Of a stretch of 58,229 nucleotides of DNA, positions 9,497 through 48,800 are shown one piece after another (position 1 is the first letter of the stretch; every line of letters starts with the position of its first letter). The translations under genes were made by a program, and so were the position numbers. Source of the stretch: a virus; the IMG/VR virus record IMGVR_UViG_3300043434_000302, positions 1 through 58,229 of that record; one strand, written 5' to 3'. The notes under the pieces were generated by a model. That model saw only the letters and a list, made by a program, of their open reading frames with translations. It did no database searches and had not been told where the DNA came from.

Positions 9497-9742
9497 TTAC
9501 GAGGTCGTCTTCGCGCTTAAAACCGCTTGTGCGGTATCTTCTAGTTCAAGGATGAAGCGCAACTCTGCTGCTCTACCTTGATCAAATTTGTGGTCCGGAA
9601 CGGTCTCCAACTTGTCCCTGCAAGCCTCCAGCCGCTCCATTAGAAAGATCATCAAGTCCTTCCACTGGGGCTGCGCCGCCAGTTGGATCACCGCCTGCGC
9701 CGCTTGCGGCGAGCATCTGCTGCTGTTGTGCTTGCGCTTCAA
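9497..9742 (-). CDS. Small protein overlapping the portal gene end
   Basis: The frame gives up to 81 residues, with a helical core WKDLMIFLMERLEACRDKLETV and RAAELRFILELEDTAQAVL. This type of small helical protein commonly lies between portal and scaffold genes. The start is uncertain: the ATG at 9742 overlaps the portal by 161 bases, while an ATG at 9652 has GGAAGG just upstream and would give 51 residues. The tryptophan-containing helix before 9652 favours the longer form. Function unknown. Confidence 0.7.
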   Translation of the reverse strand: MKRKHNSSRCSPQAAQAVIQLAAQPQWKDLMIFLMERLEACRDKLETVPDHKFDQGRAAELRFILELEDTAQAVLSAKTTS

Positions 9743-14685: not shown

Positions 14686-15155
14686 GCCTCGTTGTCCGAA
14701 ACTGGAGCATTGGAAGCTACGTGGACAGGACCACCGGTTACCGGTACGCCCTTCGGCCAGCGGATCGCTACACAGCGGCTCTTGGCAATACGCATCACGT
14801 TGACGGCGTTCTGTTGATTGCCGCCCAGTACACGGTAGTAGAAGCGGTCCTCGCCTACATAGAAGCCGACGTGACCACCGCCACTACGAGCGAACACAAG
14901 GATCGCGCCTTCACACACATGAGTGGGACGCAGGTTGGAGCCATATTCCTTCCACGCCAGTGCGCGATACCAATGCTGAGGAACGGGTAGACCTGCTTCA
15001 CGCAGGCAGTGGGCAACGAACGTGCCGCACCAAGGCGTCTCATCATCCTTCCACCAAGCACCAAGCTTGGCGAGCCACGCCTGAATTTTCGTATTGTGTT
15101 TTGGGCCAGCGACTTCCTTTAGGCCGATAGACTCACGAGCTATCTTCATCCACAT
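14682..15155 (-). CDS. Endolysin, CHAP-like cysteine peptidase/amidase (TIGR02594-like)
   Basis: The 157-residue protein contains a Cys-His-Asn arrangement typical of NlpC/P60-CHAP enzymes of the TIGR02594 type: PWCGTFVAH (Cys43), GGGHVGFY (His95) and GGNQQN (Asn113). It opens with ARESIGLKEVAG, usual for this family. No signal peptide is present, so export needs the holin encoded next. The TAATG overlap with the upstream small gene indicates coupling. Confidence 0.9.
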   Translation of the reverse strand: MWMKIARESIGLKEVAGPKHNTKIQAWLAKLGAWWKDDETPWCGTFVAHCLREAGLPVPQHWYRALAWKEYGSNLRPTHVCEGAILVFARSGGGHVGFYVGEDRFYYRVLGGNQQNAVNVMRIAKSRCVAIRWPKGVPVTGGPVHVASNAPVSDNEA

Positions 15156-15307
15156 TATTTTTTCTTTCGTGCAGCTCGCATGTTGTCCACGAGATTAGGA
15201 TAAGGTCGACCCGCTTTCTTGGCTGCAGCCTTAGCGCTCGCCTTCTGGCTATCAGTCAACGGTGTCGACTTCTTCTTTGGATTCGGCTTGTCCCATACTT
15301 TCTTCAT
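15155..15307 (-). CDS. Small basic protein, 50 residues
   Basis: The frame begins MKKVWDKPNPKKKSTPLTDS and ends MRAARKKK. It is rich in Lys and Ala (SQKASAKAAAKKAGRPYP) and shares a TAATG junction with the endolysin start. It resembles small hypothetical proteins with a KAGRPYPN-V-N motif found in phage genomes. Function unknown. Confidence 0.75.
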   Translation of the reverse strand: MKKVWDKPNPKKKSTPLTDSQKASAKAAAKKAGRPYPNLVDNMRAARKKK

Positions 15308-18970: not shown

Positions 18971-19100
18971 TGGTTAATCACTGCGTCTTCCATATCATCG
19001 AGCGCTCTTTTACGCGAGAACAAACAAAGTTTTTTCGAAACTTTTTCAATACGTTATTCGTCATGCCATAAAAAAATACAAAAAAATGTTTGGGGGTGGG

Positions 19101-19130
19101 TTGACACATCAAAATACCTTCGACTATTAA
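19101..19130 (+). promoter_or_regulatory. Strong sigma70-type early promoter
   Basis: A perfect -35 box TTGACA (19101-19106) and a -10 box TATTAA (19125-19130) are spaced by 18 bases. The location at the head of the rightward operon of small genes makes it the likely early promoter, read by the host RNA polymerase, since the phage shows no RNA polymerase of its own. Confidence 0.75.
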
Positions 19131-19187
19131 CTAGGTCGTCGGCAGCGACACAAAACACTGACCCGCTCTTTGACATTGTGAAACGCT

Positions 19188-19259
19188 TGATACCTACGGG
19201 GGCTCCGGTCCCCGCTAGGATCATCACACCGCAGTCCGCTGCCGTCTGGTGATTTTAGC
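19188..19259 (+). promoter_or_regulatory. Structured leader with inverted copy of the CCAGA/CGAGGAT-type element
   Basis: A GC-rich hairpin CGGGG...CCCCG lies at 19197-19214. Read on the opposite strand, 19214-19259 gives GCTAAAATC-ACCAGA-CGGCAG-CGGA-CTGCGG ending in CCTAGC. It shares the run ACCAGACGGC and the two-helix layout with the element at 20000-20048, though the 3' side of the loop differs. The first early gene's ribosome binding site AAGGAG follows directly. Function unknown. Confidence 0.4.
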
Positions 19260-19272
19260 AAGGAGAAAGTAA

Positions 19273-19491
19273 ATGAATAAACAAGTTCTAATCGACGCCG
19301 TCCGCGATCATGCACTGGCGAACTACAACAGCAACGGCTGGGATTATCTGGTTGAGTGCTGGGAAGACGGAGACATCCTCGAGGTGATCGAGGGTGCCAC
19401 CAGCGAGAAGCAGGCCATCGCCAAGGCCAAGAAAGCTCTCGCACCGCTCGACGAATATCGGAGTGAGGTTCGATCATCCGGCGAGTGGTGA
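19273..19491 (+). CDS. Small early protein, 72 residues
   Basis: The first gene of the early operon encodes MNKQVLIDAVRDHALANYNS followed by a WDYLVECWEDGDILEVI core and a charged end. It has the ribosome binding site AAGGAGAAAGT shared with two other early genes. Acidic, soluble, no membrane helix. I do not recognise the family; small proteins in this position often take over host processes. Confidence 0.85.
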   Translation: MNKQVLIDAVRDHALANYNSNGWDYLVECWEDGDILEVIEGATSEKQAIAKAKKALAPLDEYRSEVRSSGEW

Positions 19492-19495
19492 TCCA

Positions 19496-19545
19496 CTGAC
19501 TTCCCCAGACCGTGGGGTTCTGCTCCACGGCGAGGATGAATTCAG
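19496..19545 (+). ncRNA. CCAGA/CGAGGAT internal-loop RNA, copy 1
   Basis: Helix P1 pairs CTGACTTC (19496-19503) with GAATTCAG (19538-19545), with one mismatch at the fifth position. The inner helix pairs CCGTGG (19510-19515) with CCACGG (19525-19530). Between them lie the conserved strands CCCAGA (19504-19509) and CGAGGAT (19531-19537). It sits five bases after a stop codon, and the ribosome binding site AAAGGAG begins at 19547. See the finding on this motif. Confidence 0.8.
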
Positions 19546-19560
19546 CAAAGGAGAAAGTAA

Positions 19561-19743
19561 ATGCGTTACCCAATCATCGATACCACCCGCAGCTACACCG
19601 TCGAGCGCAACGTCTACGGCGACGAGTACGCTGGCTGGACTGTAGTTGAGCACTGCCCAGTACATGGCCTGCAGCCGTGGGAGTTTGTCCACGCAACATA
19701 CGATGAGGCGAAGGACAGTCTGGAAGCGTTCTTCGCGGACTAA
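19561..19743 (+). CDS. Small early protein, 60 residues
   Basis: The protein (MRYPIIDTTRSYTVERNVYG...) has a compact beta-rich look with WTVVEHCPVHGLQPWEFVHAT and a helical acidic end. The two histidines and one cysteine in CPVHG are not enough to claim metal binding. The ribosome binding site AAAGGAG lies right after the structured RNA copy 1. Function unknown. Confidence 0.82.
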   Translation: MRYPIIDTTRSYTVERNVYGDEYAGWTVVEHCPVHGLQPWEFVHATYDEAKDSLEAFFAD

Positions 19744-19754
19744 TCATTAACGGG

Positions 19755-19770
19755 GGGGGCTTCGGCCCCC
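19755..19770 (+). promoter_or_regulatory. TTCG-capped intergenic hairpin
   Basis: GGGGGC-TTCG-GCCCCC forms a six-pair stem with an ultrastable TTCG loop, 11 bases after a stop codon and before the ribosome binding site of the next gene. No T tract follows, so RNA stabilisation or processing is more likely than termination. A similar hairpin lies at 27955-27974. Confidence 0.65.
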
Positions 19771-19794
19771 AATAATCCAAGGAAGGTAATTAAT

Positions 19795-20004
19795 ATGACC
19801 AACATTGAAGCAATTATGCGCACAGCCGATCAATTGATCTTTGCAGCCGATGGCTATGCAGACGACGAAATGGTCTGGTTCGACAACGAACGATGGTTCG
19901 CAGGACGGCTGCGCGAGATGGCCGATGATCTTATCGATGACAACATCGAAAGCTGGGCCGTCTTCCAGCTAAACAAGGCGCACGCCGCTGGCTTCAATTA
20001 CTAA
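19795..20004 (+). CDS. Small early protein, 69 residues
   Basis: The acidic helical protein starts MTNIEAIMRTADQLIFAADG and contains DDEMVWFDNERWFAGRLREMADDLIDDNIESW. The ribosome binding site AAGGAAGG precedes it. Its TAA stop lies inside the outer helix of the next structured RNA element, so the RNA can fold fully only when no ribosome covers the stop. Function unknown. Confidence 0.82.
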   Translation: MTNIEAIMRTADQLIFAADGYADDEMVWFDNERWFAGRLREMADDLIDDNIESWAVFQLNKAHAAGFNY

Positions 20005-20048
20005 CACCACCAGACGGCGGAGCGATCCGCCGCGAGGATGGCGCTAGT
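20000..20048 (+). ncRNA. CCAGA/CGAGGAT internal-loop RNA, copy 2
   Basis: P1 pairs ACTAACACC (20000-20008) with GGCGCTAGT (20040-20048), with mismatches at positions 5 and 7. P2 pairs CGGCGGA (20015-20021) with TCCGCCG (20026-20032), capped by the GNRA loop GCGA. The conserved loop strands are ACCAGA (20009-20014) and CGAGGAT (20033-20039). The helices differ completely from copies 1 and 3 yet remain paired. The upstream stop codon TAA (20002-20004) lies in P1. Confidence 0.8.
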
Positions 20049-20070
20049 GCCAAATACGAAAGGAATGTTT

Positions 20071-20445
20071 ATGTCTTTGAATTGGGATGTCTCGAAGATC
20101 GAGAACAACAAGGAAGTCTGCTTCACAGGTGAGGGCGACAATCGCTGCCTCGATCCCGTGACCAACACGTTGATCTGGTACACGTTGTGCCTTGGCATTG
20201 GCGAGATCAGCGAGAAAACCGTCGATGAGTTCTACATTCGCATGAACCTGTTCGACAGGCTCAGCACCGGACCCATGCACTGGGAGGCTGCAGGCTATCG
20301 CTCGATCACTCTCGAGGAGCTGCGGCAGCACATTGGCCTACACACCAACGTAGGTCGCGGTGAAGCACGCAGCAAATGGTTCAAGCGCAAGGTCGACGGC
20401 GTTGTCCGCGATCTCGAGTATGACCTGCGCAAGCAAGTCGCATAG
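20071..20445 (+). CDS. Conserved early phage protein, 124 residues
   Basis: The start at 20071 is set by AAAGGA at 20059-20064; earlier in-frame ATGs are too close to it or lie in the structured RNA. The protein (MSLNWDVSKIENNKEVCF...) has a conserved TNTLIWYTLCLGIGEISEKTVDEFYIRM core seen in podovirus early proteins of unknown role. Its TAG stop is part of stem II of hammerhead A. Confidence 0.85.
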   Translation: MSLNWDVSKIENNKEVCFTGEGDNRCLDPVTNTLIWYTLCLGIGEISEKTVDEFYIRMNLFDRLSTGPMHWEAAGYRSITLEELRQHIGLHTNVGRGEARSKWFKRKVDGVVRDLEYDLRKQVA

Positions 20446-20503
20446 TCGAAACCCCTTCGGGGGTCTGGTACGGACTGACCGCCTGCCACTGATGAGACTG
20501 GTC
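20444..20503 (+). ncRNA. Type II hammerhead ribozyme A
   Basis: Core GAAA (20048 offset, at 20448-20451) leads into stem III ACCCC-TTCG-GGGGT (20451-20464), then the cleavage nucleotide C at 20465. Stem I follows (TGG...CCA with an inner CGG/CCG), then CTGATGA at 20489-20495. Stem II closes with AGTC (20444-20447) and GACT (20496-20499). The predicted cut is after 20465. The 3' GGTC can pair with GACC in stem loop I. It starts within the stop codon of the upstream gene. Confidence 0.93.
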
Positions 20504-20517
20504 GAATGGAGATCAAC

Positions 20518-20691
20518 ATGATTGACGGATTAAAAACATTTTGTGCTGGCTTGGTCGTTCTGATCATTGCCAGCCTCATCATCGTCCAGCCCCGCTACAT
20601 TGGCTATGGCTGCAAGAACGCAGATGTTCCGCTGTTCGCTAAGTACGAAAGCGACTTCCCCACATGTGAGCGGATCGAACCAATTTTCTAA
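20518..20691 (+). CDS. Small membrane protein, 57 residues
   Basis: The start at 20518 follows GGAG at 20508-20511. The protein has one membrane helix (TFCAGLVVLIIASLIIV, about residues 6-22) and a short C-terminal domain with two cysteines (GYGCKNADVPLF...FPTCERI), which could form a disulfide if it faces the periplasm. It begins after the ribozyme A cleavage point, so it would be on a transcript with a 5' hydroxyl end. Function unknown. Confidence 0.8.
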   Translation: MIDGLKTFCAGLVVLIIASLIIVQPRYIGYGCKNADVPLFAKYESDFPTCERIEPIF

Positions 20692-20703
20692 GGGAGAGCA
20701 CCA

Positions 20704-21033
20704 ATGACACAAGTTATCGATCTTGAACGCTTCGCCACCAAGGGCGAGGTCACTGTAGTGAAACGTCTGGTCCGCATCGTGCTCGAGCGCGGATACATTG
20801 TCAGCATCAATGACGGCGAAGAGTGGACCGTCAAGCTCAGCACTGACCGCAAAGAGATTCTGTCCGCCCTTGGAACCACTGGCGAGGACATCATCCGCCT
20901 TTACAAGGACGGCGAACGGGCCGGATCGATCTGGCTGGTCTACGGCAACGCTGAGGACGGCAGCGAGCTGATCGCGGATCACAGTGACAACGAGGCATGC
21001 CACAGCATCTACGCTGAGGTGTACCCCAACTGA
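20704..21033 (+). CDS. Early protein of unknown function, 109 residues
   Basis: The protein (MTQVIDLERFATKGEVTVVK...) has AAGGGAGAG ten bases upstream of the ATG. It is an acidic alpha-beta protein with a DDGEEWTVKLSTDRKEIL-like centre and GTTGEDIIRLYKDGERAGSIWL. It follows the membrane protein by 12 bases. Its stop TGA is inside helix P1 of the next structured RNA. Confidence 0.83.
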   Translation: MTQVIDLERFATKGEVTVVKRLVRIVLERGYIVSINDGEEWTVKLSTDRKEILSALGTTGEDIIRLYKDGERAGSIWLVYGNAEDGSELIADHSDNEACHSIYAEVYPN

Positions 21034-21080
21034 CTTCCCCAGACTGCGGTTCTTCGGAGCCGCAGCGAGGATGAATTCAG
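21030..21080 (+). ncRNA. CCAGA/CGAGGAT internal-loop RNA, copy 3
   Basis: P1 pairs CTGACTTC (21030-21037) with GAATTCAG (21073-21080). P2 pairs CTGCGGTTC (21044-21052) with GAGCCGCAG (21057-21065) around a TTCG loop. The loop strands are CCCAGA (21038-21043) and CGAGGAT (21066-21072), identical to copy 1. The ribosome binding site AAGGAG follows P1 immediately. Confidence 0.82.
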
Positions 21081-21094
21081 CAAGGAGAAAGTGA

Positions 21095-21277
21095 ATGACC
21101 GAAGAGAAACTGGATGACTACACCGCCGTCATGATCTGCGAAGGCGTCGAAGATGCGGACTATGACCGCACCGTCGAAGCTTGGCAGTACCTGCATGACA
21201 CTGGCCTTGCCTACCGCCTCCAAGGATGGTTTGGCCGCTACGCTCAGTCGCTGATCGAACAAGGGATCATTGGCTAG
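21095..21277 (+). CDS. Small acidic early protein, 60 residues
   Basis: The protein (MTEEKLDDYTAVMICEGVED...) is acidic and helical, with a TVEAWQYLHDTGLAYRLQGWFGRYAQSL stretch that resembles short phage proteins of the DUF-type small helical class. AAGGAG precedes the ATG by eight bases. It lies between structured RNA copy 3 and hammerhead B, so its transcript would carry an RNA element at each end. Confidence 0.82.
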   Translation: MTEEKLDDYTAVMICEGVEDADYDRTVEAWQYLHDTGLAYRLQGWFGRYAQSLIEQGIIG

Positions 21278-21278
21278 C

Positions 21279-21340
21279 AGTCGAAACGCCTTCGGGCGTC
21301 TGCGATGGGATGGCCTCCCCGCACTGATGAGACAGGCCAT
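21279..21340 (+). ncRNA. Type II hammerhead ribozyme B
   Basis: Stem II strand GTC (21280-21282), core GAAA (21283-21286), stem III ACGCC-TTCG-GGCGT (21286-21299), cleavage C at 21300, stem I TGCG..GGGA-TGGCC-TCCC.CGCA (21301-21323), CTGATGA (21324-21330) and stem II GAC (21331-21333) give the full hammerhead. Loop I TGGCC can pair with GGCCA at 21335-21339 to form a pseudoknot. The cut is predicted after 21300. Confidence 0.95.
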
Positions 21341-21354
21341 ATATGGAGAATGAC

Positions 21355-21618
21355 ATGGATGATGATGATTATATGGAACTTGGTGGCCTAATCGGCGAGT
21401 ACGGGATTACAAACGTCTTTAGCGCCGCGCTGGCCCATCAAGAGCAGTACTTCGAAGAAAGGCTGGCTGATTTGCTAAAGGCTGCTTCTAATGCCTTAGC
21501 CGATCTTGAAGGCATCATGCCGGAGTTTGAGCCAAGCGGTGATCGCGAGCATCCCGCATGGCAAACCATCACCGATCTTCGAAATGCAATTGAAATGGCG
21601 AAGGCAGGCTTTGAATAG
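21355..21618 (+). CDS. Early protein of unknown function, 87 residues
   Basis: The start at 21355 is preferred because GGAG lies eight bases upstream; an ATG at 21343 overlaps the ribozyme tail. The protein (MDDDDYMELGGLIGEYGITN...) is acidic and mostly helical, with a coiled segment SAALAHQEQYFEERLADLLKAASNALADLE. Its stop TAG forms part of stem II of hammerhead C. Confidence 0.82.
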   Translation: MDDDDYMELGGLIGEYGITNVFSAALAHQEQYFEERLADLLKAASNALADLEGIMPEFEPSGDREHPAWQTITDLRNAIEMAKAGFE

Positions 21619-21678
21619 TCGAAACGCCTTCGGGCGTCTGCGATGGGATGGCCTCCCCGCACTGATGAGACAGGCCAT
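21617..21678 (+). ncRNA. Type II hammerhead ribozyme C
   Basis: This copy is identical to hammerhead B over about 60 bases: AGTC (21617-21620), GAAA (21621-21624), stem III ACGCC-TTCG-GGCGT (21624-21637), cleavage C at 21638, stem I (21639-21661), CTGATGA (21662-21668), GAC (21669-21671) and the 3' pseudoknot strand GGCCA (21673-21677). It begins in the stop codon of the 87-residue gene. Confidence 0.95.
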
Positions 21679-21694
21679 GTAAGGAACAAGAATA

Positions 21695-22069
21695 ATGAAA
21701 ATCGTGTCTATACATTTTGACGGGGCAACCCGTTTCCAGAAGCCGTATGCCTACCTAACCGACATCGACGATATCAGTGTCGGTGATACCGTTGTCGTGG
21801 ACTCTCCGCATAACGGATTCGCATGCGTGAAGGTTGTAAGCATCGGGGAAACTGCTGAGCAGATCGAGAAGGCCCACAAGTGGATCGTCTGCAAAGTTGA
21901 TACCACATCGTATCTTGAGCGCTTGGAACGCGAAGAAAGGCGTAAGACCGTTATCGCAAAGCTCAAGAAGCTCGAGCAGCACCTTGTCGAAGAGGATCGT
22001 TTCGCGATGCTGGCTAAGCTCAGCCCAGAGGCATCCGCCCTACTCGAGGAGCTCAAAACGCTGAAGTAG
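21695..22069 (+). CDS. Early protein of unknown function, 124 residues
   Basis: The protein (MKIVSIHFDGATRFQKPYAY...) has an N-terminal beta domain with ISVGDTVVVDSPHNGFACVKVVSI, the look of a small SH3-like barrel, then a long basic coiled coil (LERLEREERRKTVIAKLKKLEQHLVEED). AAGGAA lies ten bases before the ATG. Its TAG stop is in stem II of hammerhead D. Similar two-part proteins occur in other phages without assigned function. Confidence 0.83.
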   Translation: MKIVSIHFDGATRFQKPYAYLTDIDDISVGDTVVVDSPHNGFACVKVVSIGETAEQIEKAHKWIVCKVDTTSYLERLEREERRKTVIAKLKKLEQHLVEEDRFAMLAKLSPEASALLEELKTLK

Positions 22070-22128
22070 TCGAAACGGGCTCAGGCCCGTCTGGCGGGGT
22101 TGCCTCCCGTCACTGATGAGACAGGCAA
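22068..22128 (+). ncRNA. Type II hammerhead ribozyme D
   Basis: GTC (22069-22071), GAAA (22072-22075), stem III ACGGGC-TCAG-GCCCGT (22075-22090), cleavage C at 22091, stem I TGGCGGG/CCCGTCA (22092-22112, one G-T pair), CTGATGA (22113-22119) and GAC (22120-22122). Stem III differs from the other copies at several paired positions and remains complementary. Loop I TTGCCT (22100-22105) is a perfect complement of AGGCAA at 22123-22128, just before the ribosome binding site. Confidence 0.95.
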
Positions 22129-22139
22129 AGGAGACTGAA

Positions 22140-22220
22140 ATGACTGACAACAAACTGCACGTAGCAATACGCTGCGGCATCTTCGCGATCATCGTGATTG
22201 CCGCCAACATTTGCGCATAA
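22140..22220 (+). CDS. Very small membrane protein, 26 residues
   Basis: The frame encodes MTDNKLHVAIRCGIFAIIVI and ends AANICA, mostly one membrane helix. AAAGGAG at 22127-22133 supports the start, directly after the pseudoknot strand of hammerhead D. Small single-helix phage proteins can modulate host membranes or other phages; nothing here specifies the role. Confidence 0.65.
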   Translation: MTDNKLHVAIRCGIFAIIVIAANICA

Positions 22221-22223
22221 GCC

Positions 22224-22382
22224 ATGCAGTGGCGCGTGATCCTGATGGCGGATGGCAAAAGCGCTGTCCGCCACGTCAAAGCCAACAGCGCAGCCCTCGC
22301 GAGATGGAACGCTATCGGCGACTACAAACTAGAGACGGGACTAGATGCCACGGTGGCTCACATCGTGCGTACCAACCGTTAA
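22224..22382 (+). CDS. Small basic protein, 52 residues
   Basis: The frame encodes MQWRVILMADGKSAVRHVKA and continues to HIVRTNR. It starts four bases after the previous stop, so translation is probably coupled. It is basic with an alpha-beta look. No known motif. Confidence 0.65.
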   Translation: MQWRVILMADGKSAVRHVKANSAALARWNAIGDYKLETGLDATVAHIVRTNR

Positions 22383-22395
22383 TGTATTTATATGC

Positions 22396-22424
22396 TTGAC
22401 GCATAAAACCAGCGTCATTATGGG
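22396..22424 (+). promoter_or_regulatory. Possible promoter or operator before ardC
   Basis: TTGACG (22396-22401) and TATGGG (22419-22424) are 17 bases apart. The same stretch holds a perfect inverted repeat TGACGC/GCGTCA with nine bases between, which could be an operator or RNA hairpin. Either would control the antirestriction gene that starts at 22447. Confidence 0.4.
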
Positions 22425-22446
22425 CATTTATAGAAGGGAATCGATT

Positions 22447-23316
22447 ATGAAACAGGACGTTTACGAAACGGTCACCAACAAGGTGCTCGAGATGATGGAG
22501 ACACATGGCGCGAACTGGATCAACCCGTTCGCTCGCAAGGGCAAAGCCCTCCAGCCACACAACATCATCAGCAAGAAGCCATACCGTGGCATCAACCACA
22601 TGATGCTGCTCTGGTCACCATATGAAACGTCTGCTTGGGGAACCTTCAAGCAGTGGAACGAGAAGGACTGCAAAGTCCGCAAGGGTGAGAAGTCCACCCC
22701 CATCGTTTTCTGGCAGTTCATCGAGAAGGAAGACGACAAGGGCCAGAAGGTCACCATCCCTTTCCTTCGTCAGTACTATGCATTCAACGTAGCTCAGGTA
22801 GAGGGTGACTTTGCTGAGCGTCTATTGACCTGTACAGATAATGGTACAGGTGCAGAGGATATCGCGGCGGCTGAGGATTTTTTCCGCCAAATCCCTGCGG
22901 ATGTACATCACACACCAACTGGTCGTGCGTACTACAACCCCATGAACGACTTCATCAGCATGCCAAGCAAGGATGTCTTTGAAGATACGCCGACAAGCAC
23001 TGCGACTGAGAGCTACTACAGCACACTGTCACATGAGCTGACGCACTGGACGGGTCACACGTCACGTCTGGATCGCCTCACCAAGTCGCGCTTCGGTGAC
23101 GAAAGCTATGCACGGGAAGAGCTGGTCGCTGAGATCGGGGCCGCATTGCTGTGCGCCCACCTCGAGATCAGTTCCTCGCCTCGCCCAGATCATGCCCAGT
23201 ACCTCAACGGATGGATGAAGGCGCTGTCAGATCACAAGAAGGAATTCGTATCAGCAGCAGCGGCTGCATCTAAAGCAGTCGATTTCGTAATTGAAGCAGC
23301 AGGAAAGGAAGCCTAA
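22447..23316 (+). CDS. ArdC-like antirestriction protein
   Basis: The 289-residue protein has an N-terminal ssDNA-binding-type domain (DUF1738-like: NPFARKG, PYRGINHMMLLW, WGTFKQWNEKDCKVRKGEK). A C-terminal zincin-like domain has the metal site HELTHWTGH at residues 196-204 and a downstream EELVAEIGA glutamate. ArdC proteins on plasmids and phages shield incoming DNA from restriction. The start at 22447 follows GAAGGG. It fits an early gene made soon after DNA entry. Confidence 0.9.
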   Translation: MKQDVYETVTNKVLEMMETHGANWINPFARKGKALQPHNIISKKPYRGINHMMLLWSPYETSAWGTFKQWNEKDCKVRKGEKSTPIVFWQFIEKEDDKGQKVTIPFLRQYYAFNVAQVEGDFAERLLTCTDNGTGAEDIAAAEDFFRQIPADVHHTPTGRAYYNPMNDFISMPSKDVFEDTPTSTATESYYSTLSHELTHWTGHTSRLDRLTKSRFGDESYAREELVAEIGAALLCAHLEISSSPRPDHAQYLNGWMKALSDHKKEFVSAAAAASKAVDFVIEAAGKEA

Positions 23317-30674: not shown

Positions 30675-31019
30675 TCATGATCCCGACTCCAATAGATCAC
30701 AGACCTTTTGAAGCGCGGACCTGTGACGCACCCTGAGATCGTCGTACCAAGCACAATCGACATTTGCCAACTCGACTATGCGTCGCACAACCTCTGGCGA
30801 CGATTCTTCCGGAGCCCACTGCCCCTCTAAGCCCTCACAAGAGCAGTGACTACCCTCTACTAACCAAAGCTTGTCGTCGCGCTTGAAAAGCACGAGAGCT
30901 TCTCCACTGTAATTCTCGTATTCATAGGCGGCGAATAGAACCTCTGGCTCAGGCTCGCTCATGATAAAATTGTTCTGCACGTCCCCCCAATTAGAGAAGA
31001 TGTCAAAGTAAACGCTCAT
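30675..31019 (-). CDS. Protein of unknown function, 114 residues
   Basis: The start at 31019 follows AAAGGG. The acidic protein (MSVYFDIFSNWGDVQNNFIM...) has a LWLVEGSHCSCEGLEGQWAPE segment that is repeated in many small phage proteins with one or two Cys and Trp residues. It lies between the diphosphohydrolase-like gene and the HNH gene. Role unknown. Confidence 0.78.
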   Translation of the reverse strand: MSVYFDIFSNWGDVQNNFIMSEPEPEVLFAAYEYENYSGEALVLFKRDDKLWLVEGSHCSCEGLEGQWAPEESSPEVVRRIVELANVDCAWYDDLRVRHRSALQKVCDLLESGS

Positions 31020-35064: not shown

Positions 35065-35940
35065 TCAGTAGCTCCGTTCGCTCTTACCGTTTACTGCTTG
35101 CTCTAGCGCTTCGATATCCGCCTTCATCACCTTCAGTGAATCCCAAAGATCTTGATTGTCTTTCTCCAGCTTGCACCTATCGAGCAACATCTCCTTCTTA
35201 TAGCGAAGGTCACTAAGTTTCTCGCGTGCTTGCTTAAAGGATAGTCCCGCCATTGGACTGACTACAGCATTAGCCTTACCCTTCGGCACGAACATGCCTG
35301 TCCATCCGCCATTGATGTTGTGGTCAATGATCTGGCGAACGGACCACCCTGCATCCACGCCTTCACGTAGGACATTGATTGCCAGCTTCCTCGCCTGATC
35401 GGTAAGCGGTTTTTTGATTTGCTTGCGCTGCTCTTCCCAATCCGACCATGCATCTGCATCAATCCAATCTGGGATAGAGAAGGCGTCAGCCTTCTTACTA
35501 TTCCCTTTATTCTCTTCCTTATCTTTATTCCCTTTATTGTTCTGTGTCGCGGTGGTGTCGCGGTCCTGTCGCGCTGCTGTCGCGGTCCTGTCGCTCTGCC
35601 CTTTAGGATCGAGCTGGAAAGCATTGTAATTGTTGATAGAAATGATGGTGACACCTGTCGCGCTATCGACTGACACCATGTCGCGGTCAACGAGACGTGT
35701 GAGAAAGCGATTTGCCCAATCTTTGCTGCGTTCTAGGTGCGTCGCCATGTCCCGTACCGACATTGCAAGCTGTCCACGCTGCAGTTTTATGGGGCGATCT
35801 TTGTAGCGCACATCCACTTCTCTCCACGATGCTCGCAGCACCATCCACGCAAAGGCCATAGCCTCCGCATCAGTGCGAAAGATCGAGTGATCCAATAGAC
35901 GGCGGTAAATTAGGACGTACCCGCCCAACTCATGTGACAT
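35065..35940 (-). CDS. Replication initiation-type protein with winged helix
   Basis: The 291-residue protein has an N-terminal winged-helix domain typical of phage O/DnaD-like replication proteins (GYVLIYRRLLDHSIFRTDAEAMAFAWMVLRASWR, MSVRDMATHLERSKDWANRFL). A low-complexity Lys/Asn/Glu linker follows near residues 125-150, then a conserved DAWSDWEEQRKQIKKPLT and INGGWTGMFVPK module. It is first in the leftward operon, next to the structured divergent region that is the best origin candidate. Confidence 0.83.
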   Translation of the reverse strand: MSHELGGYVLIYRRLLDHSIFRTDAEAMAFAWMVLRASWREVDVRYKDRPIKLQRGQLAMSVRDMATHLERSKDWANRFLTRLVDRDMVSVDSATGVTIISINNYNAFQLDPKGQSDRTATAARQDRDTTATQNNKGNKDKEENKGNSKKADAFSIPDWIDADAWSDWEEQRKQIKKPLTDQARKLAINVLREGVDAGWSVRQIIDHNINGGWTGMFVPKGKANAVVSPMAGLSFKQAREKLSDLRYKKEMLLDRCKLEKDNQDLWDSLKVMKADIEALEQAVNGKSERSY

Positions 35941-39841: not shown

Positions 39842-42800
39842 TTAGCGCTTCTCCGCCTCTTCGATGAGGTCGTTGAACTCCGTCATGATGGCGGTGATCT
39901 CGTCGTCAAGCTTCTGCGTCTCTGACGGCTTAGCCCCTTCAAGGATCATCTTGCGACGCTCCCTGCGTAGGTCAGATACGTCACGGTAGTAAGACCCAAC
40001 GGAGTCGATAAGTTCTGCCTTCGGGTTCTCATCAAAGACCTCCGTGGTGTCCTGATCATTCTCTTCCCTAAGCTTGACCGTCTTCTTGAGCTCGTTGACG
40101 GCCTTGACGTTGTCGTAGAACTTGCCTCCTTCAGACGTCTTCCCACCGACTTCCCCATAGAAGCGCCTCACGAAGGCTATGTCGTTTGCTTCTATCTGCT
40201 CGCCACTGGATCCCTTCTCGAGAGTTGCTGTACTGCGGTACAGGAATTGCATGGGTGGCAGAACTTGCTCTACGAAGAACTTGATCTCTTCTGGGGTTGG
40301 TGACATGCCTCCAACCTCATACTCATCGCCGCCAGTGACATAGTTAATGACCTCCGCCGCCCTGCTGTACATGGCGTACATGACGGTGGTATCTCCCCGT
40401 GCGCGGCTCATGCCGGTGGTTGGGTTCAGGTCGTTGAAGTCCTTGTTGTAAATACGACGACCAAGACCATCTTCGTTCATCGCGTATTGGACGAACATAT
40501 CGAAGACTGATGGTGAGACAAACTCAATGAACCCAGCGCCGTAGGCAATTGGGTTGACGGAGTTAATCATGACCTTCGCTGAGCCACCAACAAACTGTCC
40601 GAATGAAAGCTGTCCTCTTGCTGCCTCAACCATGCGCCGACCAATGGCAGGGAACATGTTGTAGAAGTACGGCATTGGGATAGCGACATACTTGTCGGTG
40701 TCTGCGAACAGGCCAAGAGGGATAATGAAGGCGTGGTCCTTCACCCACTCTGGTATGTCGTCCTCGTCGTAACCAGCAGCGGCAAGTGCCAAGCCTTGAA
40801 TGACGCCCAGTCCAACGCCGCCAATCAAGATCTTCTTTCCAGCCTTACCCAGCATGGTCTTAATGTTGCGGTCAGTCGATGCGATAGAAGCGTTGGCAAA
40901 GCCGTACAGAGAATTGATCTCGCGTGTCCATTGGCCCTTCTGGTTGAAGTTCACCGTAATGTTCTTCGCGATCTCCGCCGCCTGCGCGTCTGTCATTCCC
41001 TTGTCGATAGCAATCTTAAAGGTGGCAAGACGTGTGGCATTTTCGAGCGCATCATTCCACGCCGTCACATAATCAACGACGACCTTTGGAGCACTCGTCT
41101 TTCCTGTAGACAACTGCTTGACTGCCTTCTGCAACTCCGCCTCCAGTTTTTCTGGATCGCGGTCGAAGTTCTTGAAAAACGACTCTCGAATAGCGGTGCG
41201 TCCACCGGCCTTCTCGAATCTATCGAACAGGTCAGCAACTTCCTGAGATCCAGCAGGCGTAGGCTCGCCACTATCAGTAGCGCGTATGACTCGCACCAGC
41301 TTCTTTGCATACAAAGGAGCCTTAGCCATGATCTTGAATTGCTCACCGTCCAGCGGCGTGCTGGTTAGGTTGACCATCACACCCCAGATGTCGCGTGTGA
41401 AGTTGACCGGTCCAAATTCTGGCATGTATTGAGTGCGCAACTGCGACCACATGCGCGTAATTCGTCCGACATTATTGATAAATGCTGCAGACGCGCCCTC
41501 GAGTGTTGGTAGATCCTCGTTCTTCAATACTGCAGCGATGTCTGTAGCCATCTTCTCGTCAGGATTAAAGACGATGAACTTGTCCGTTCCATCAACGCGA
41601 GTAGCAAAGACGTTTGGCTGGCGCTTGAAGGCGGTGTCGACGATGGTGTCTACGTTGCCAGTGCGTTTGTTGTACGCCCTCTTCGTTGGCGACTTGAAGA
41701 TGTCGTCAGCAAGATCAGGGTCCATGCCCATCGAAACCAACTGCTTGCGCACTTGATCAAGAGTGGCCGTCGACGGATCGATGACCATCCAGAAAGTCTG
41801 GTCCTTGTTTTCCAGCGCAGCCTGAAACACCGTATTGCCAAGACGGTTTGCCTCAGCGCGATTGATAGCCGCCTCCCGCTGCGTAACGATGTTGGCGATA
41901 ATGCTGCTGACCGGCTTGCTTGAGCCAACCGCTGCCTTCAAGGCTGATCCCTCTACGCTTGCGCCACGAGTGCCGAGTGCATGACCACCATCGACACCTT
42001 CGCGGAACAGAGGGACGTAGAACTTATAAGCATTGCGCAGGTTACGAACCGTCTCCGCTGACTCTATGCCAGAGTCCTGCAGTACTTGCAGCGTTCCGTT
42101 TGTTATAACGTCCAGCTTCTTGGCTACAGTCTCAAGGCGGTTACGCTTGGCGGGAGACAGTGCAGCTAAGTAAGCTTTGGCTGCGGCGTCGTTGATGCCA
42201 GAGCCACCATCTTTGAATGCGTCGTTGCGCTGGCGGATAATAGCGTTGCGCTCTACCGCATGCCGGTTGTGCATGTAGGTTTCTACTTCATTGATAGACA
42301 GCGCTTGTTTGCTGATCTCCTTCAGCACTGGCTGCAGTTCATTGAGGTGGAACTCTTGCGTTGTGTATGCAGCACGACTGCCCATCAACTGCTCAGCGCG
42401 GTCGATGTTTGTCTTATCGTTATAGAAGTCGTCGATGTTCTTTGTAAGCTGCTTAACAGAGCGCGTCCTGTTTACGAGTTTCTCGTACCAGTTAACAAGC
42501 CTTGGGAATCGCTCAGCCATTGGGTCCACGCCAAGAACAGCGGGGCCGGTCTTAAACTTAGGTGCGTTCGGACGGATGCTTGGCTTGGTTGCTTTGCCAC
42601 CAATGTTCAGATTGGCTGGACGGCGGACACCAGAGAAACGAATGCCTTCGCCGCTCATCATCTCACGAATACGGCCAGCGTTTGCATAGTTAAACGGCAC
42701 CGCTTCAGACAAGACGGTATTAGTGTCGCCGCTGTTGTACTGATCACTGCGACCTCCACGTTGCGGGGCAAGCGTGAAGTTGTTCAGATCCTCGAGCTGA

Positions 42801-45800
42801 CCGGCACGCCCATCCTGTCGCCGCAGAATAACTGGAACCTGCTCTATGCCAGCAGCCTTGAACGCAGCCATACGGTGACGGCCTTCATGACCCATCACGC
42901 GACGAGGCTGCTCCTTGCCCGAAGCCATGTAAGGTTCAGCGATCTCAAGGAACAGTGGCTGGTCTACTCGACGCAACTCATCAACATTCAATGTGCGAGC
43001 GCGAGTCTTTTCTGGATCCATCGTTGCGAGGAGATCACGCCCCTTGCTCGACAGGGTAAGACCAAGGAACTGATCTGGAGACATGAAGGTGATCCAAGCC
43101 TTAGTCTTGTTATCATCATCAGGATAGGACAGATCCTGCAGCAGTAGATCGGTACGCTCTGGTGTGTAGACCGCACGATTAGTTCGGCCAGAGTACTGGA
43201 CGTTACCAGCCTTGCTCGATTGAGCTGCTACGGCGTCATCGTACTGGTCGAAGTACTCGCCCTCGCCCTTCGTATAGAAATCGCTGCGTGCAGGATCATG
43301 GTACATGAAGACAACGTCTGGCTCTCCGTTGTTGAAGGCGGAGAACTCAGTCTTGTCCCAGTTATCTGAAGCTGCCTCATCGCTCCATTTGACTCTCGAT
43401 GCGACCTTAAAGCCAGCCGTCGAGTACAGGTAAGGCAGGACAGTGTCGTATGCGTCAAGTCGGCGAGCGCCTAACCAAACCGCCATGCGTGCGAGCGGGA
43501 TAGCAACACCCCTAGCTTCTGATGTCGGATGCTTGAACACCGACACAAGGTCATCGCCCTTAATAGCAAAGCCAGTGAGCCCATCCTCAGTGAGGAACAG
43601 GCGCATGTCGGCGTAATCTTTCTTATCGTAGACGTAGACTGCAGCACCAGCCTTATTGGCCTTCTGCGCTTCAGATATCAGTCGATGGTAAAGCTTGGCG
43701 GAAGCTTGTCCAGCAGTTAGTTCGAGGAACTTTGGAGCATCAACACCCGCCACAGCGAGTGCGTTCTTTACCTTTACTGAGTGGCTGTATGTAGCAACTA
43801 CAGGTGTGCGGCCCTCTATGCTCCGCGCAAGGTTTCCACCAGCTTTTCTGCTGACATGTTCGGATGGTCTTCCAGAAGTTGCTGACCCAGCGCCATCAAG
43901 AATGGGGAATTCTTTATTGAGTCTGGTAACGACTGAATCTTGGATGAAGCGTCTGGCGTCTCTGGGCGCGAATTCATTAGCGGCCCCAGATTGTCCGTTA
44001 GCGTTTTGATTGACGGCTCCTCCGCCCAGAACGCTTCCTGATCCTTGTCCCCGTCCCCCCTTGGGTTGAATGGCGGTACTGATTTGCCCATCTGTAAATC
44101 CTCTTTTCTTGGCAATGCGAACAAACTCGTCGTAGTAGCTGGTTTCGCCAGCACTACCCGCATCGTCTGCGCCCTTACCCTTTTCCCGTACACCAAACTT
44201 CTTAGACCACAGTCGCTTCTCTGGATACCAGAGAACGGCCTGAAGATCAGCATTCGTAATGTTAATACTATCGCCTTGCAAGATCTGCTGCGACTTAGCA
44301 ACAATATCCCGTATCCAAGTGCGCTGCCAATCAGCCTTCGGTGCATCCTTTGTGTCTTCAAAGCTGGCAAGAAGGCGCTGTGCAGCAAGCGCGGTCTCTG
44401 GCTTAACCTTCTCTCCGCTGTCATAGGCGGCGCGGTTAACCTTAAAGTCCTTCTCGAAGGCCTTGGACTCAGCCTGCGCAACCTCAAGCAGCTCTGGTCC
44501 ATATGCGTTTGTCGGACGACCATCATCAGCCAGCGCTTTAGTAAGACGCTCTTCCTGCTGCTGAATAAGCTCAGGATCCGCACCAATAAGGTCACCAGTC
44601 ATGCGGCCCCACGTCCGCATAAACCACATGTCGATGGTTACGGGATCGTAGCGACCATTGAGGTTTGAGTAGAAGCCAAAGCCAATCTTTGGGCCAAGCA
44701 CTGCGCTGCCGTAGACCATCTCTTCGGATGCGCCAGACACATTGCTAAAGCCAGCGGCTCGCAGCTCGCGGACTGTGAACTTGGTGGCAAAGAACTTCGA
44801 GACTGCCTCAGCGCCATACTTTTCAACGATTGAGTTGAAGAGTTTCGCGTTGGAGATAATCGAGGATGCGGCCTTGCCCCAACCTTCGTTCTCAGGGAAC
44901 TTACCATTCTTCTTATAGTGCTCGTACCAGCGCTCAGCAAACACAGCATTGGCATCGACAGATTGATTCTGCGAAGTAATAGCAAGAGCTGCAGTAAAGT
45001 GCAGTTGAGCGCCTACATCAGTAGCGATCTCAGGGTGGATCATGGAGGCGACGGCAGTGGCTTTGCGCATCTCCTCTGTGTACCAGCCAGAAGCGTTTCG
45101 CTTGCCAGAACGAGCCAGCTCAGACTTAACTTCATGGGCTACGGTTTGCGCAAGAAGGTCATCCTTTTGACCGGCTGCAGTAATAGGCCGCCCAAGAATA
45201 GAAAGCGTGCGTTTTTGGATTTCAATCGCAGCTTCAGTGACACCCATCGTCCCTTGCTTAACGTCTGGCTGGGCGAACAGTTCGTCAGCAGAAAGCTTTG
45301 ATGCCTTAATGTTCTTTTTGAACTCGCCTGTGGCGCTGTCTTTCTTGCGCCCAGAGTACTGGATCTGCTGTTCGTCATCTCTGAGCGGAGCAGCCTCAGT
45401 CATGTTCTCCTGAGCCTTGCCGGTGCGGTAGCCCTCAAAGATTTCGGCGACAGACTCAACGCCATTGATGCGGAAGATGTTGCGGAAGCCGCGAAGCATG
45501 TCGCTGATGAAGTCGACAACGCGAATGAAGCTGGCCTTTAGCCCCTTCATGTCAACGCCACGGTCTTTAGCGTCTACGAGAGCACCAAAGGCTACGGCCT
45601 GAGCCTCGAAGCGAGACAGTGGTGTGTCGCCCAAGCTGGCAATGAGGCCGTCATATACACTGCCTTCGCCATCCGTCGTCAGCGTCTTCAGCTTGCGCAG
45701 GATGCTTGGGTCGAGATCGTCAATCCGCATATCGTCGCGGAACGAATTATTAAGAAGCTTGAATGCGTCTGGATCGTAGGCGCGTAGCATGTCCTGAATA

Positions 45801-48800
45801 ACGTGGAACGCCTCATGCGCAGCGTTTTCTCTGGATGCGCCCGTTACGTTATCGCTTAGGGAAAGGGTGATCAGGCCACGGAATCCATTAGGGCTAATCT
45901 TATAGGCGTCATACGAACCACCGGCTTCTTCGCCAAGATCTACACCACTTGCTGCCGCAGCTTTTGCATCACTTGCCGTTATGCTTGGAACAAAAAGGAT
46001 ATCTACCTTTGCGTTTTTTGGCAGAACGCGAGATACAACTTCGCCCATCTGGAAGGCGTAGTAGAGCTGCGTTACATCGTAGTTGTTTTGCTTCAGTAAT
46101 GAACGAAGACGGCTGGCAACGACTTTGCCTTGCGCCCCGCGAGCAGCAATCTTGTCGAGCCTGTCTTGAATGACGGCGTCATAATCTATGTCTGGCTTAG
46201 ACACCTCTTCGCTATCAGCGGTCTTGTCCTTGCTTAGCGGGGTGTCGCGAACAACGTCACTGGCCTTCTTGCGTGGAGCACGGACAGTTTCGCGACGGCC
46301 AGAGTAGCGTGTACCGCCATCATCCCGCTTAGTGTTGAGCTGGCTGATGAGCTCTGGGCCAATATCCTCAGCTCCCATGTCCTTGTCCTTGGACATGCGC
46401 TTGATCTCAGCAAGGTCTGCGTCGTCGATAAGACCTTCTTTATGAACCTTGGTGGCGTAGCGAACAACACCGTTGCGGTCGTCGTTAAGGATCTTGTCTT
46501 CGATACTTTCGACGTGCTTTTCAACCTTGCCGCCATCATCTTGGACAGGCTTCTTCGGCGCAGGTTCTTGGTCAGCTTCGGCTGGCGCTGCTTCTTCGGC
46601 AGGGGCTTCTTCGGTAGGAGCTGTTTCCTCAGCAGGTGCGGTCTGGACTTCCGGTGCCTGCAGTCGAGGCGTGGCAGGAGGACCACTGATTTCGTTTGGA
46701 CCCTCTACATTGCCCTCTACGTTTGGCGCACGCTCTTGCTGTGGATTAACCTGCGCGTTCTGCGCCTGTTGTTCCACCGGCAACTGGTCGGTGTTTGCCT
46801 CAAAGCCCGTCATGCGGGTAGGCGAGATCGTGGTAGGCAGTCCTGCGTCCTGTGTAGGCACCAGAGCTCGCGTACTAGTGCGATCTACTGACTGACGCGG
46901 GTTGAGGTCTGTACCTGTACCCTTGCGTGGCTTGCGCAGATCTCCAGCAAGCTCTTGCGACATGCGCGGCGTGCCACGAACGACGCGATCAAACATTGCG
47001 TTCGGATCAACATCCTCTGAGATAATGACAGGAGTACCGTTGCCATCTACTTCTGTGGGTGACTCGTACTGAATGCGAACCTTGCCACCTTCTGCGCCAA
47101 CAATGGTTGCAGCAATGCCGCCAAGATCCTCGCCGTAGACGGCTGGGTTGAGGAAGAACTGGCTCTCTGGTTCCGGAGCACCTGCACGCAGATCTTCGCG
47201 CTGTGTGAGCTCGCCTGTGGCTGTGTCAAATCGGCGTTGACGAACGTCCGCCAAGCGGAATGCTTGCTGAGCCTCACGTTCCCGCTGAGCTTCATTGGTC
47301 ACATCTTCTTGTGACATGACAACACTGCCTTCACCGCCTCGTTCTGGGCGTGCAAAAAGAGTGCCGGTCTGAGCAGTTGGTTGATAGTTGCTGACGGCGT
47401 TACGCAGGCCGCTGACGAACTGCTTGCCGGTCGACTCTAACGACTTTGCGATGGATGAGAGGGTTGGGCTTTCAGCAATGACGGCTGGGTTAATCTTTGC
47501 CAGCTCGTCGCCAATCATCTGCTTTGAAGTGCTGACAGAGTTGGTGCCGCCAAACATTCCAGAGATACGACGAACGGCTTCAGGCTCGACTCGAGATGCC
47601 TCTTCCTGATTAAGGATGCGAGCAACCTGCTCGACCTTCGTCACGTCGCTCACCGGCTGCGACATGATGTCGGCAATGCGCGGGTTCGACTCGTTGTTAC
47701 GAGCAATATCAAGGATCTGCTCTGGCGTGTAATTCATGCCGCCACCACCGCCGCCGCCTTCACGAGGTGGTGTTGCTTCGCCTCGAGCGGAGAGTGCTGA
47801 GACCAGCTCTTCATCTTCCATTGGTCGTGGCTGGTCGTCAGGAGCATTTCCAGTCAGTCGATTAACAGCGCTCGCACCAGCGCCGATACCACCACCCATT
47901 AATCCGCCAACAATTGCGCCTTCGCCAGCAGCTTTAGCAACGCCTTCTAATGTACCTACATTAGAGCCAACACGCTGCATTGAGACGTTGTTGATGAGCT
48001 GCTCAGATCCTGACTGTGGAGCTTCTTGAGCGGACTCCGCAGCGGTACCTATGCCAAGTTCTTTTAGTGTGCCTCGCCCAGCACTGCCACTTAAAATTCG
48101 AGCCTCAAACACAGAGGCGGGAATCGACATCAGGGCAGTGGTGGCTCCAGTGCTTAGTGCAGCGGCGCGACCCACTTGATTTGCTGCTGCATTCTTTGCC
48201 GCCTCAAAGTCGCCATTGTTTTCAGCAAGAAGCTTTTTACCTAAAGTGCTTTGAGCAAATGCCTCTGGATCGCTATTGATCTGCTCGAGGGCTTGGGCAG
48301 TAACATCTGAACCTGCACTCAAGCCAGCCTGCGTACCTTCTACACCCATGCCAGCAACCGTCATGATTGCTCGTTTACCGACAACTTGAGCCGCCTCTCG
48401 ACCACCCATAGCCGCAGTCGCACCAAACAACTTTGCCAAGCGCGGCGTTTGCGAAATGATCTTTGCGCCAATTGCAGCGACAGCCGCTTCTGGAGCCAAG
48501 GCACCTACTGCTGCAGTTGCAATAGCCCCGCCTACAAGCTCAGGAATTGACTCTGCTACGCCAAGCATGGCGGCGTATGCACGCTGACCAAGGCCCATGT
48601 CCTTGCCAAGAACGCCTTTTTCACGAGCCTCGCGACCGTAGTCAGTCATTTCTGCACTGGCTATTTTCTGGGTGCGGCGAGCTTGATTCTGGAGCCTTGC
48701 GTTTCCAGTTGCGTACCCAATGCGCTTGTCAATATTTGCCATACGAGATGACATGGCGCTGCCAATGTCGCCAAGAAAGCTTTCGTTTTTACCACTTGCT

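Follow-up and report, generated by a model that had tools for sequence, protein, structure and literature searches.

A structured RNA element with a conserved two-loop core occupies phage gene boundaries alongside type II hammerhead ribozymes

Clustered hammerhead ribozymes flank single genes in prophages, and their processing of long messages into gene-length mRNAs has been inferred (Perreault 2011, PMC3088659). In phage T7, RNase III cuts the mRNA at hairpins (PMC4858673). Here we analyzed a 58,229-base virus record (IMGVR_UViG_3300043434_000302, hereafter the window), whose podovirus-like gene set includes a terminase, a head-tail adaptor, a primase/helicase, an internal virion protein, and a ribonucleotide reductase. 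An array of small genes spans approximately positions 19,270–22,200, and its junctions hold three copies of an RNA element (E1–E3), four type II hammerheads, and one plain GC hairpin. The element represents a new family of structured RNAs located at the boundaries of phage genes, an assignment that we consider secure.

The three copies, all on the plus strand, share the core picked out by the original prediction: the pattern CCAGAC-N(10-40)-GCGAGGATG occurs exactly three times in the window, always at a predicted place, and in none of 100 shuffled sequences. E1 occupies 19496–19545, with an outer helix P1 (19496–19503/19538–19545) and an inner hairpin P2 (19510–19530). E3 occupies 21030–21080 (P1 21030–21037/21073–21080; P2 21044–21065, with a TTCG loop), while E2, previously given as 20000–20048, is better placed at 20001–20047 (P1 20001–20008/20040–20047; P2 20015–20032, with a GCGA loop). 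Folding each sequence singly yields the predicted helices in all three. Between the helices lies the core, comprising a residue M (19504, 20009, and 21038 in E1, E2, and E3, respectively), a CC/GG pair of strands (19505–19506/19534–19535, 20010–20011/20036–20037, and 21039–21040/21069–21070), an RGA/CGA pair of strands (19507–19509/19531–19533, 20012–20014/20033–20035, and 21041–21043/21066–21068), and an AU dinucleotide (19536–19537, 20038–20039, and 21071–21072). An outer-helix mismatch invariably at the fifth position does not hold for all copies: in an 8-bp register, E1 and E3 are mismatched at pair 5 (C.T) and E2 at pairs 4 and 6 (both A.C).

A first IMG/VR scan, using just the core sequence, returned 45 loci. 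Twelve matches in 11 of these loci had an inner helix of 8–10 bp, and every other match had one of 4 bp or less; the 34 loci with helix-free matches were dropped, and conservation of a coding sequence was rejected as the origin of the motif. We aligned, without difficulty, 56 distinct sequences (alignment A1) drawn from core scans, anti-restriction-gene relatives, and one genome scan, admitting those whose inner helix was 5 bp or longer and whose outer helix formed 5 or more of 9 pairs. Changes on both sides were found in 13 of the 15 pairs tested (8 in P1, 7 in P2). Paired cells made up 90.7% of the alignment, compared to 67.8% after shuffling and 29–47% when the strands were slid, and the covariation score was 0.573 versus 0.173 in shuffles (0 of 500 as high). 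Pairs 4–6 of P1 were unpaired in 18, 23, and 26 of the 56 rows, respectively. Since A1 sequences had partly been picked for pairing, we also tabulated, blind to pairing, all 144 core matches in the loci collected by that stage. All 54 with a P2 of at least 6 bp formed 6 or more of the 8 outer pairs, and those with a P2 of 4 bp or less mostly had 3–5; in this unselected table, the outer-helix filter lost none of the core matches having an inner helix of at least 6 bp. Chance was rejected as the origin of the motif, given the absence of the core pattern from shuffled sequences and the division of core matches into two groups by inner helix. Thus, the proposal that the window copies are a selected structured RNA was borne out by further homologues with compensating changes.

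A covariance model (R1) found elements with altered cores, namely CGRGA with CGACGAU and UCGGA with CGAGAAU, both of which keep two base pairs. We therefore compared, under identical constraints in IMG/VR, a compensated CG/CG core with two half-changed controls, counting an element as complete when P2 had 5 bp or more and 6 or more of the 8 outer pairs formed. Of 69 distinct matches to the compensated core, 7 were complete, and the uncompensated controls gave 0 of 62 and 0 of 61; the wild type gave at least 48 complete elements among the at least 84 distinct matches listed, with one more having P2 without P1. Because the core-pair changes are compensated, the core can be written M-[2 bp]-RGA...CGA-[2 bp]-AU. 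The shared internal loop of the original prediction thus stands as a conserved core and falls as a single loop, since CC and GG are base-paired; on comparative grounds, it is two small loops, RGA/CGA (3x3) and M/AU (1x2), with 2 bp between them.

In all, at least 78 distinct elements were recognized by sequence and structure, their carriers being IMG/VR contigs, a Sphingomonas laterariae prophage, and two Erythrobacter phages; each element had to carry RGA/CGA, AU, and two core pairs of any Watson-Crick type. The first core pair is C-G, U-A, or A-U, and the second C-G, G-C, or U-A. From the outside inward, the element consists of P1 (∼8 bp), the M/AU loop, 2 bp, the RGA/CGA loop, and P2 (∼6–12 bp). 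Departures at loop residues were few in the model search: the third residue of CGA is C at L014 position 9561, L176 position 3305, and L621, and one degenerate copy (L053 position 4110) reads CAAGGAC. P1 can differ strongly in sequence, as in CAGCGCCC/GGGCGCUG, and is longer in L623. The CTGA..TCAG outer helix is not fixed across the family; the Erythrobacter phages carry CAGCGCCC/GGGCGCTG. P2 hairpins average ∼81% G+C and close with varied loops, including GNRA and UUCG. The apical P2 sequence GGTGCGATC recurs across contigs more than other loops (L025, L166, L186, L196, L201, L206, and L228) and may be stable or functional.

As originally predicted, the element matches no described class: covariance-model scans of the window and 39 further distinct loci placed no Rfam 15 family at its gathering score on any element. 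The best chance match, freshwater-2 on E1 (18.1 versus 49.9 bits, E 8.2), was absent from other copies, and no Rfam hammerhead matched E1–E3 even though the neighboring hammerheads were detected. The RAGATH motifs of Weinberg and co-workers are reportedly conserved RNAs from the neighborhood of hammerhead-associated genes, and some of these RNAs have since given rise to new ribozyme classes; compared through Rfam alone, no family of any name matched the element. Kink-turns have a consensus of a three-nucleotide bulge followed by tandem sheared G.A pairs. We rejected this fold for the element, in which one residue (R) separates the 2-bp helix from GA in E1–E3 and in 56 of 56 A1 rows. A CsrA/RsmA site, with GGA in a loop, was likewise rejected: the Gs are paired, and in 10 of the 78 elements C stands in for the first G, opposite a compensating G. 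No earlier description of the motif was found in the mostly open-access literature searched, and one may exist.

The element lies between genes. Within the 78-element set, 76 copies have a close upstream stop codon and 77 a downstream start, with both on the same strand in 75; when a comparable upstream check was applied to the opposite strand, 38 passed. UGA or UAA falls within P1 in 55 of 64 copies, as counted after false or duplicate rows had been removed by hand (L005, L151, one L195 place, and L259). Some search patterns forced P1 to begin with CT[AG][AC], inflating both the CTGA/CTAA frequency and this stop register; other patterns were unforced, and the copies found without the constraint have a stop inside or just before P1, apart from one copy that lacks a clear frame upstream. 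In the Erythrobacter copies, L588, and L610, the stop is found outside P1. In the window, the gene upstream of E2 ends with TAA at 20002–20004 and that upstream of E3 (20704–21033) with TGA at 21031–21033. The upstream genes are diverse and encode RecT, major head protein, primase, RusA, HNH, anti-restriction, and virion proteins. Thus, the element occupies the interval that separates a stop codon from the following ribosome-binding site (Shine-Dalgarno sequence, SD), whatever the genes. A link to one gene family was rejected, as the flanking genes are unrelated, and an unconfirmed link to gene c5, upstream of the element in L058, was dropped.

The same slots hold hammerheads. The original prediction placed the element in the same kind of position as hammerheads, and we confirmed both the position and the hammerheads themselves, all on the plus strand. 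Three score at or above the Rfam type II gathering threshold (21279–21341 and 21617–21679, both at 39.6 bits, and 22068–22130 at 49.1 bits); the fourth (20444–20506), in the same kind of slot, scores 26.3 bits against a gathering score of 37 and has a full core. Hammerheads resembling this copy occur in relatives. The element and the type II hammerhead (RF02276) both sit in stop-SD slots of the same phages, are indifferent to gene identity, and occur in several copies per phage, whereas the element has neither the CUGANGA/GAAA core nor the three-way junction and is a single hairpin with two small loops.

Moreover, the two RNAs exchange places. We compared relatives of the window phage, leaving out the near-identical L049 and L050, and found four homologous junctions that hold either the element or a type II hammerhead, with gene homologues sharing 37–88% amino acid identity. 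Upstream of gene c0 (20071–20445, plus strand), the element is present in the window, L053, L054, L055, and L176, and a hammerhead in L014, L057, and L058, whose c0 homologues are 37–43% identical to that of the window. Downstream of c0, there is a hammerhead in the window, L014, L053, L054, L055, and L057, and the element in L176 and L287. Upstream of gene c3 (20518–20691, plus strand), a hammerhead is found in the window, L014, L053, L054, and L055, and the element in L176 and L287 (c3 74% identical). Downstream of gene c2 (20704–21033, plus strand), the element occurs in the window, L014, L053, L054, L055, and L057, and a hammerhead in L287 (c2 41% identical).

The element is carried by phages whose hosts, where known or suggested by nearby named relatives, so far point to alphaproteobacteria. 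It is present in the Sphingomonas laterariae prophage (L259/L025), in Erythrobacter phage vB_EliS_R6L (L555; two copies in bases 1–48000, at 30829–30881 and 15136–15189), and in Erythrobacter phage ZS04 (L554; three copies in bases 20000–65260, listed as 19092–19144, 20322–20382, and 35153–35206). The Erythrobacter phage copies score 32–42 bits with the element model and are unannotated, at gene boundaries; R6L and ZS04 are cultivated phage-host pairs. The nearest named relatives are Erythrobacter phages for L206, Erythrobacter and Sphingopyxis phages for L610, and, for L177, phages that include those of Mesorhizobium, Aurantimonas, and Rhodobacter together with one Microcystis phage. Searching 24 records whole gave 1–4 matches each in 23, besides weak antisense ones, and no match in L253, which had been a chance match of the genome scan. 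Among 397 Sphingomonas-family genomes, there was one strong match (the known prophage) and nine weak ones (22.9–31.1 bits), three of which were inspected and lacked a complete element (L291, L293, and L299); 385 genomes of the Sphingomonas class gave the same single strong match. These surveys found no full element on host chromosomes outside the prophage. The model found no element in T7, CRP-7 (bases 1–30000), CRP-810, MW202692, fecal contig L556, Sphingopyxis VSN-002, Rhodobacter RcapNL, Mesorhizobium vB_MseS-P1, or Aurantimonas AmM-1, and short-query BLAST in named phages gave chance-level matches only, which were not counted.

Since the element replaces hammerheads at the same junctions, it most simply does the hammerheads' job. 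On balance, we favor by a modest degree a reading in which the element is a cis-acting gene-boundary mark where polycistronic phage mRNA would be cut, as hammerheads would cut it. The message would be severed after the stop codon of one gene and before the next gene's ribosome-binding site, with the cut placed in or beside the core, such that the upstream message would keep its stop codon and the downstream message its SD; a ribosome terminating at the stop codon would briefly open P1 and the core. Several observations weigh against this reading. At a fifth junction, that following the gene at 19561 (60 residues), a plain GC-rich hairpin with a UUCG loop stands in the window (19742–19796, plus strand) where L014 has an element variant (9561–9611); because the plain hairpin replaces the element there, a stable hairpin alone may suffice at that place. 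In 28 loci of distant carrier phages, neither a hammerhead nor any other ribozyme family of Rfam reached threshold, and the exchange evidence is therefore confined to one phage group. In addition, phages with a single copy would have little obvious gain from one cut.

If the message is cut, the cutter could be the host or the RNA itself: strict loop conservation favors self-cleavage, and the alphaproteobacterial distribution favors a host nuclease. Cleavage by a host double-strand RNase of the RNase III type, as at the R sites of T7, is a possibility that we hold tentatively, by analogy. The T7 sites (R0.3–R1.3, R4.7, and R18.5) also lie between genes and combine a lower stem, a small internal loop, and a GC-rich upper stem of 9–10 bp with a tetraloop, at a total length similar to that of the element; this layout was recovered in seven or eight of ten T7 places, and the folds of E1–E3 share it. 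The summed stack of the element, ∼20–26 steps, is also close to two helical turns. However, the loop sequences are unrelated, and the internal loops vary among T7 sites, being far less strictly kept, whereas the element retains its loop residues across unrelated helices. Also less expected of an RNase III site are the frequent breaks in the outer helix at pairs 4–6, the lack of any match in the T7 genome (R1 search, up to E 1), and the lack of a full element on the surveyed host chromosomes outside the prophage. The near-invariant core flanked by freely varying helices would instead suit a new small self-cleaving ribozyme class, among the suggestions of the original prediction, with the two loops as active site and P1 and P2 as arms, which we regard as conceivable if somewhat doubtful. 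The absence of a common gene partner fits such a ribozyme, as does the presence of the element at homologous junctions otherwise held by a proven type of ribozyme. Conserved unpaired residues amid drifting helices are typical of a catalytic core but equally of a protein site, and most natural ribozymes have more parts than the element, which has only about nine unpaired residues in its core and lacks both a junction and a pseudoknot. Moreover, its hosts point to alphaproteobacteria, whereas hammerheads occur in many hosts. A ribozyme of this very simple build, one hairpin with two loops 2 bp apart, distributed among alphaproteobacterial phages and interchangeable with hammerheads in cutting polycistronic mRNA where genes meet, would be a somewhat doubtful prospect.

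The element need not be cut at all. A gene-boundary hairpin acting as a barrier to 3′-5′ exonucleases, or as an insulator between genes, would agree with the G+C-rich P2 and with the plain hairpin at the fifth junction; we consider this unlikely, as it leaves the conserved RGA/CGA and AU residues, and the need for P1, unexplained. Slightly less probable still is a site at which a host or phage RNA-binding protein controls downstream translation or transcript elongation, the latter being controlled by the put sites of phage HK022. The conserved internal loop adjoins the SD, and several copies per genome would allow co-regulation, yet the flanking genes are unrelated, the element exchanges with hammerheads, and CsrA-type GGA recognition in particular is excluded because variants without GGA exist (for example, CGACGAU). 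The original prediction had also suggested a translation control element. As a signal for stop-codon readthrough or frameshifting, with the stop codon in or beside P1, this is very improbable: the register of the stop in most copies is fixed as such a signal would need, but that register is partly imposed by the search pattern and lost in the Erythrobacter copies, L588, and L610, UAA is used besides UGA, and the downstream starts spread over all three frames (20/24/16).

The leader of the array's first gene (window 19175–19262) forms two strong hairpins, together −36.9 kcal/mol. Its reverse strand matches the element model at 21.5 bits in nine further loci, some on the same contig, and at 21.4 bits in L176. 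The recurrence of this identical-score match in other loci indicates that the leader itself is conserved; in the window, the antisense match (19215–19258, 21.5 bits) lacks CGAGGAT and was not counted as an element. Directly after the ribozyme array, at 22345–23316, lies a gene of the anti-restriction protein family phrog_7245; hammerheads are reported to flank ardA, another anti-restriction gene (Perreault 2011, PMC3088659). Elsewhere in the window, a single reading frame of 3101 residues occupies the minus strand at 39842–49147.

Our results place an undescribed, covariation-supported RNA family at homologous junctions in the stead of a proven ribozyme type, and through that shared place the role of clustered phage ribozymes becomes testable. 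If unrelated RNAs of two kinds act at the same junctions, then it is the gene-length message that is selected, and not the ribozyme. Should the element prove to cut itself, it would constitute a new ribozyme class; should a host nuclease cut it, these phages would switch between RNA and protein catalysts for one and the same step.

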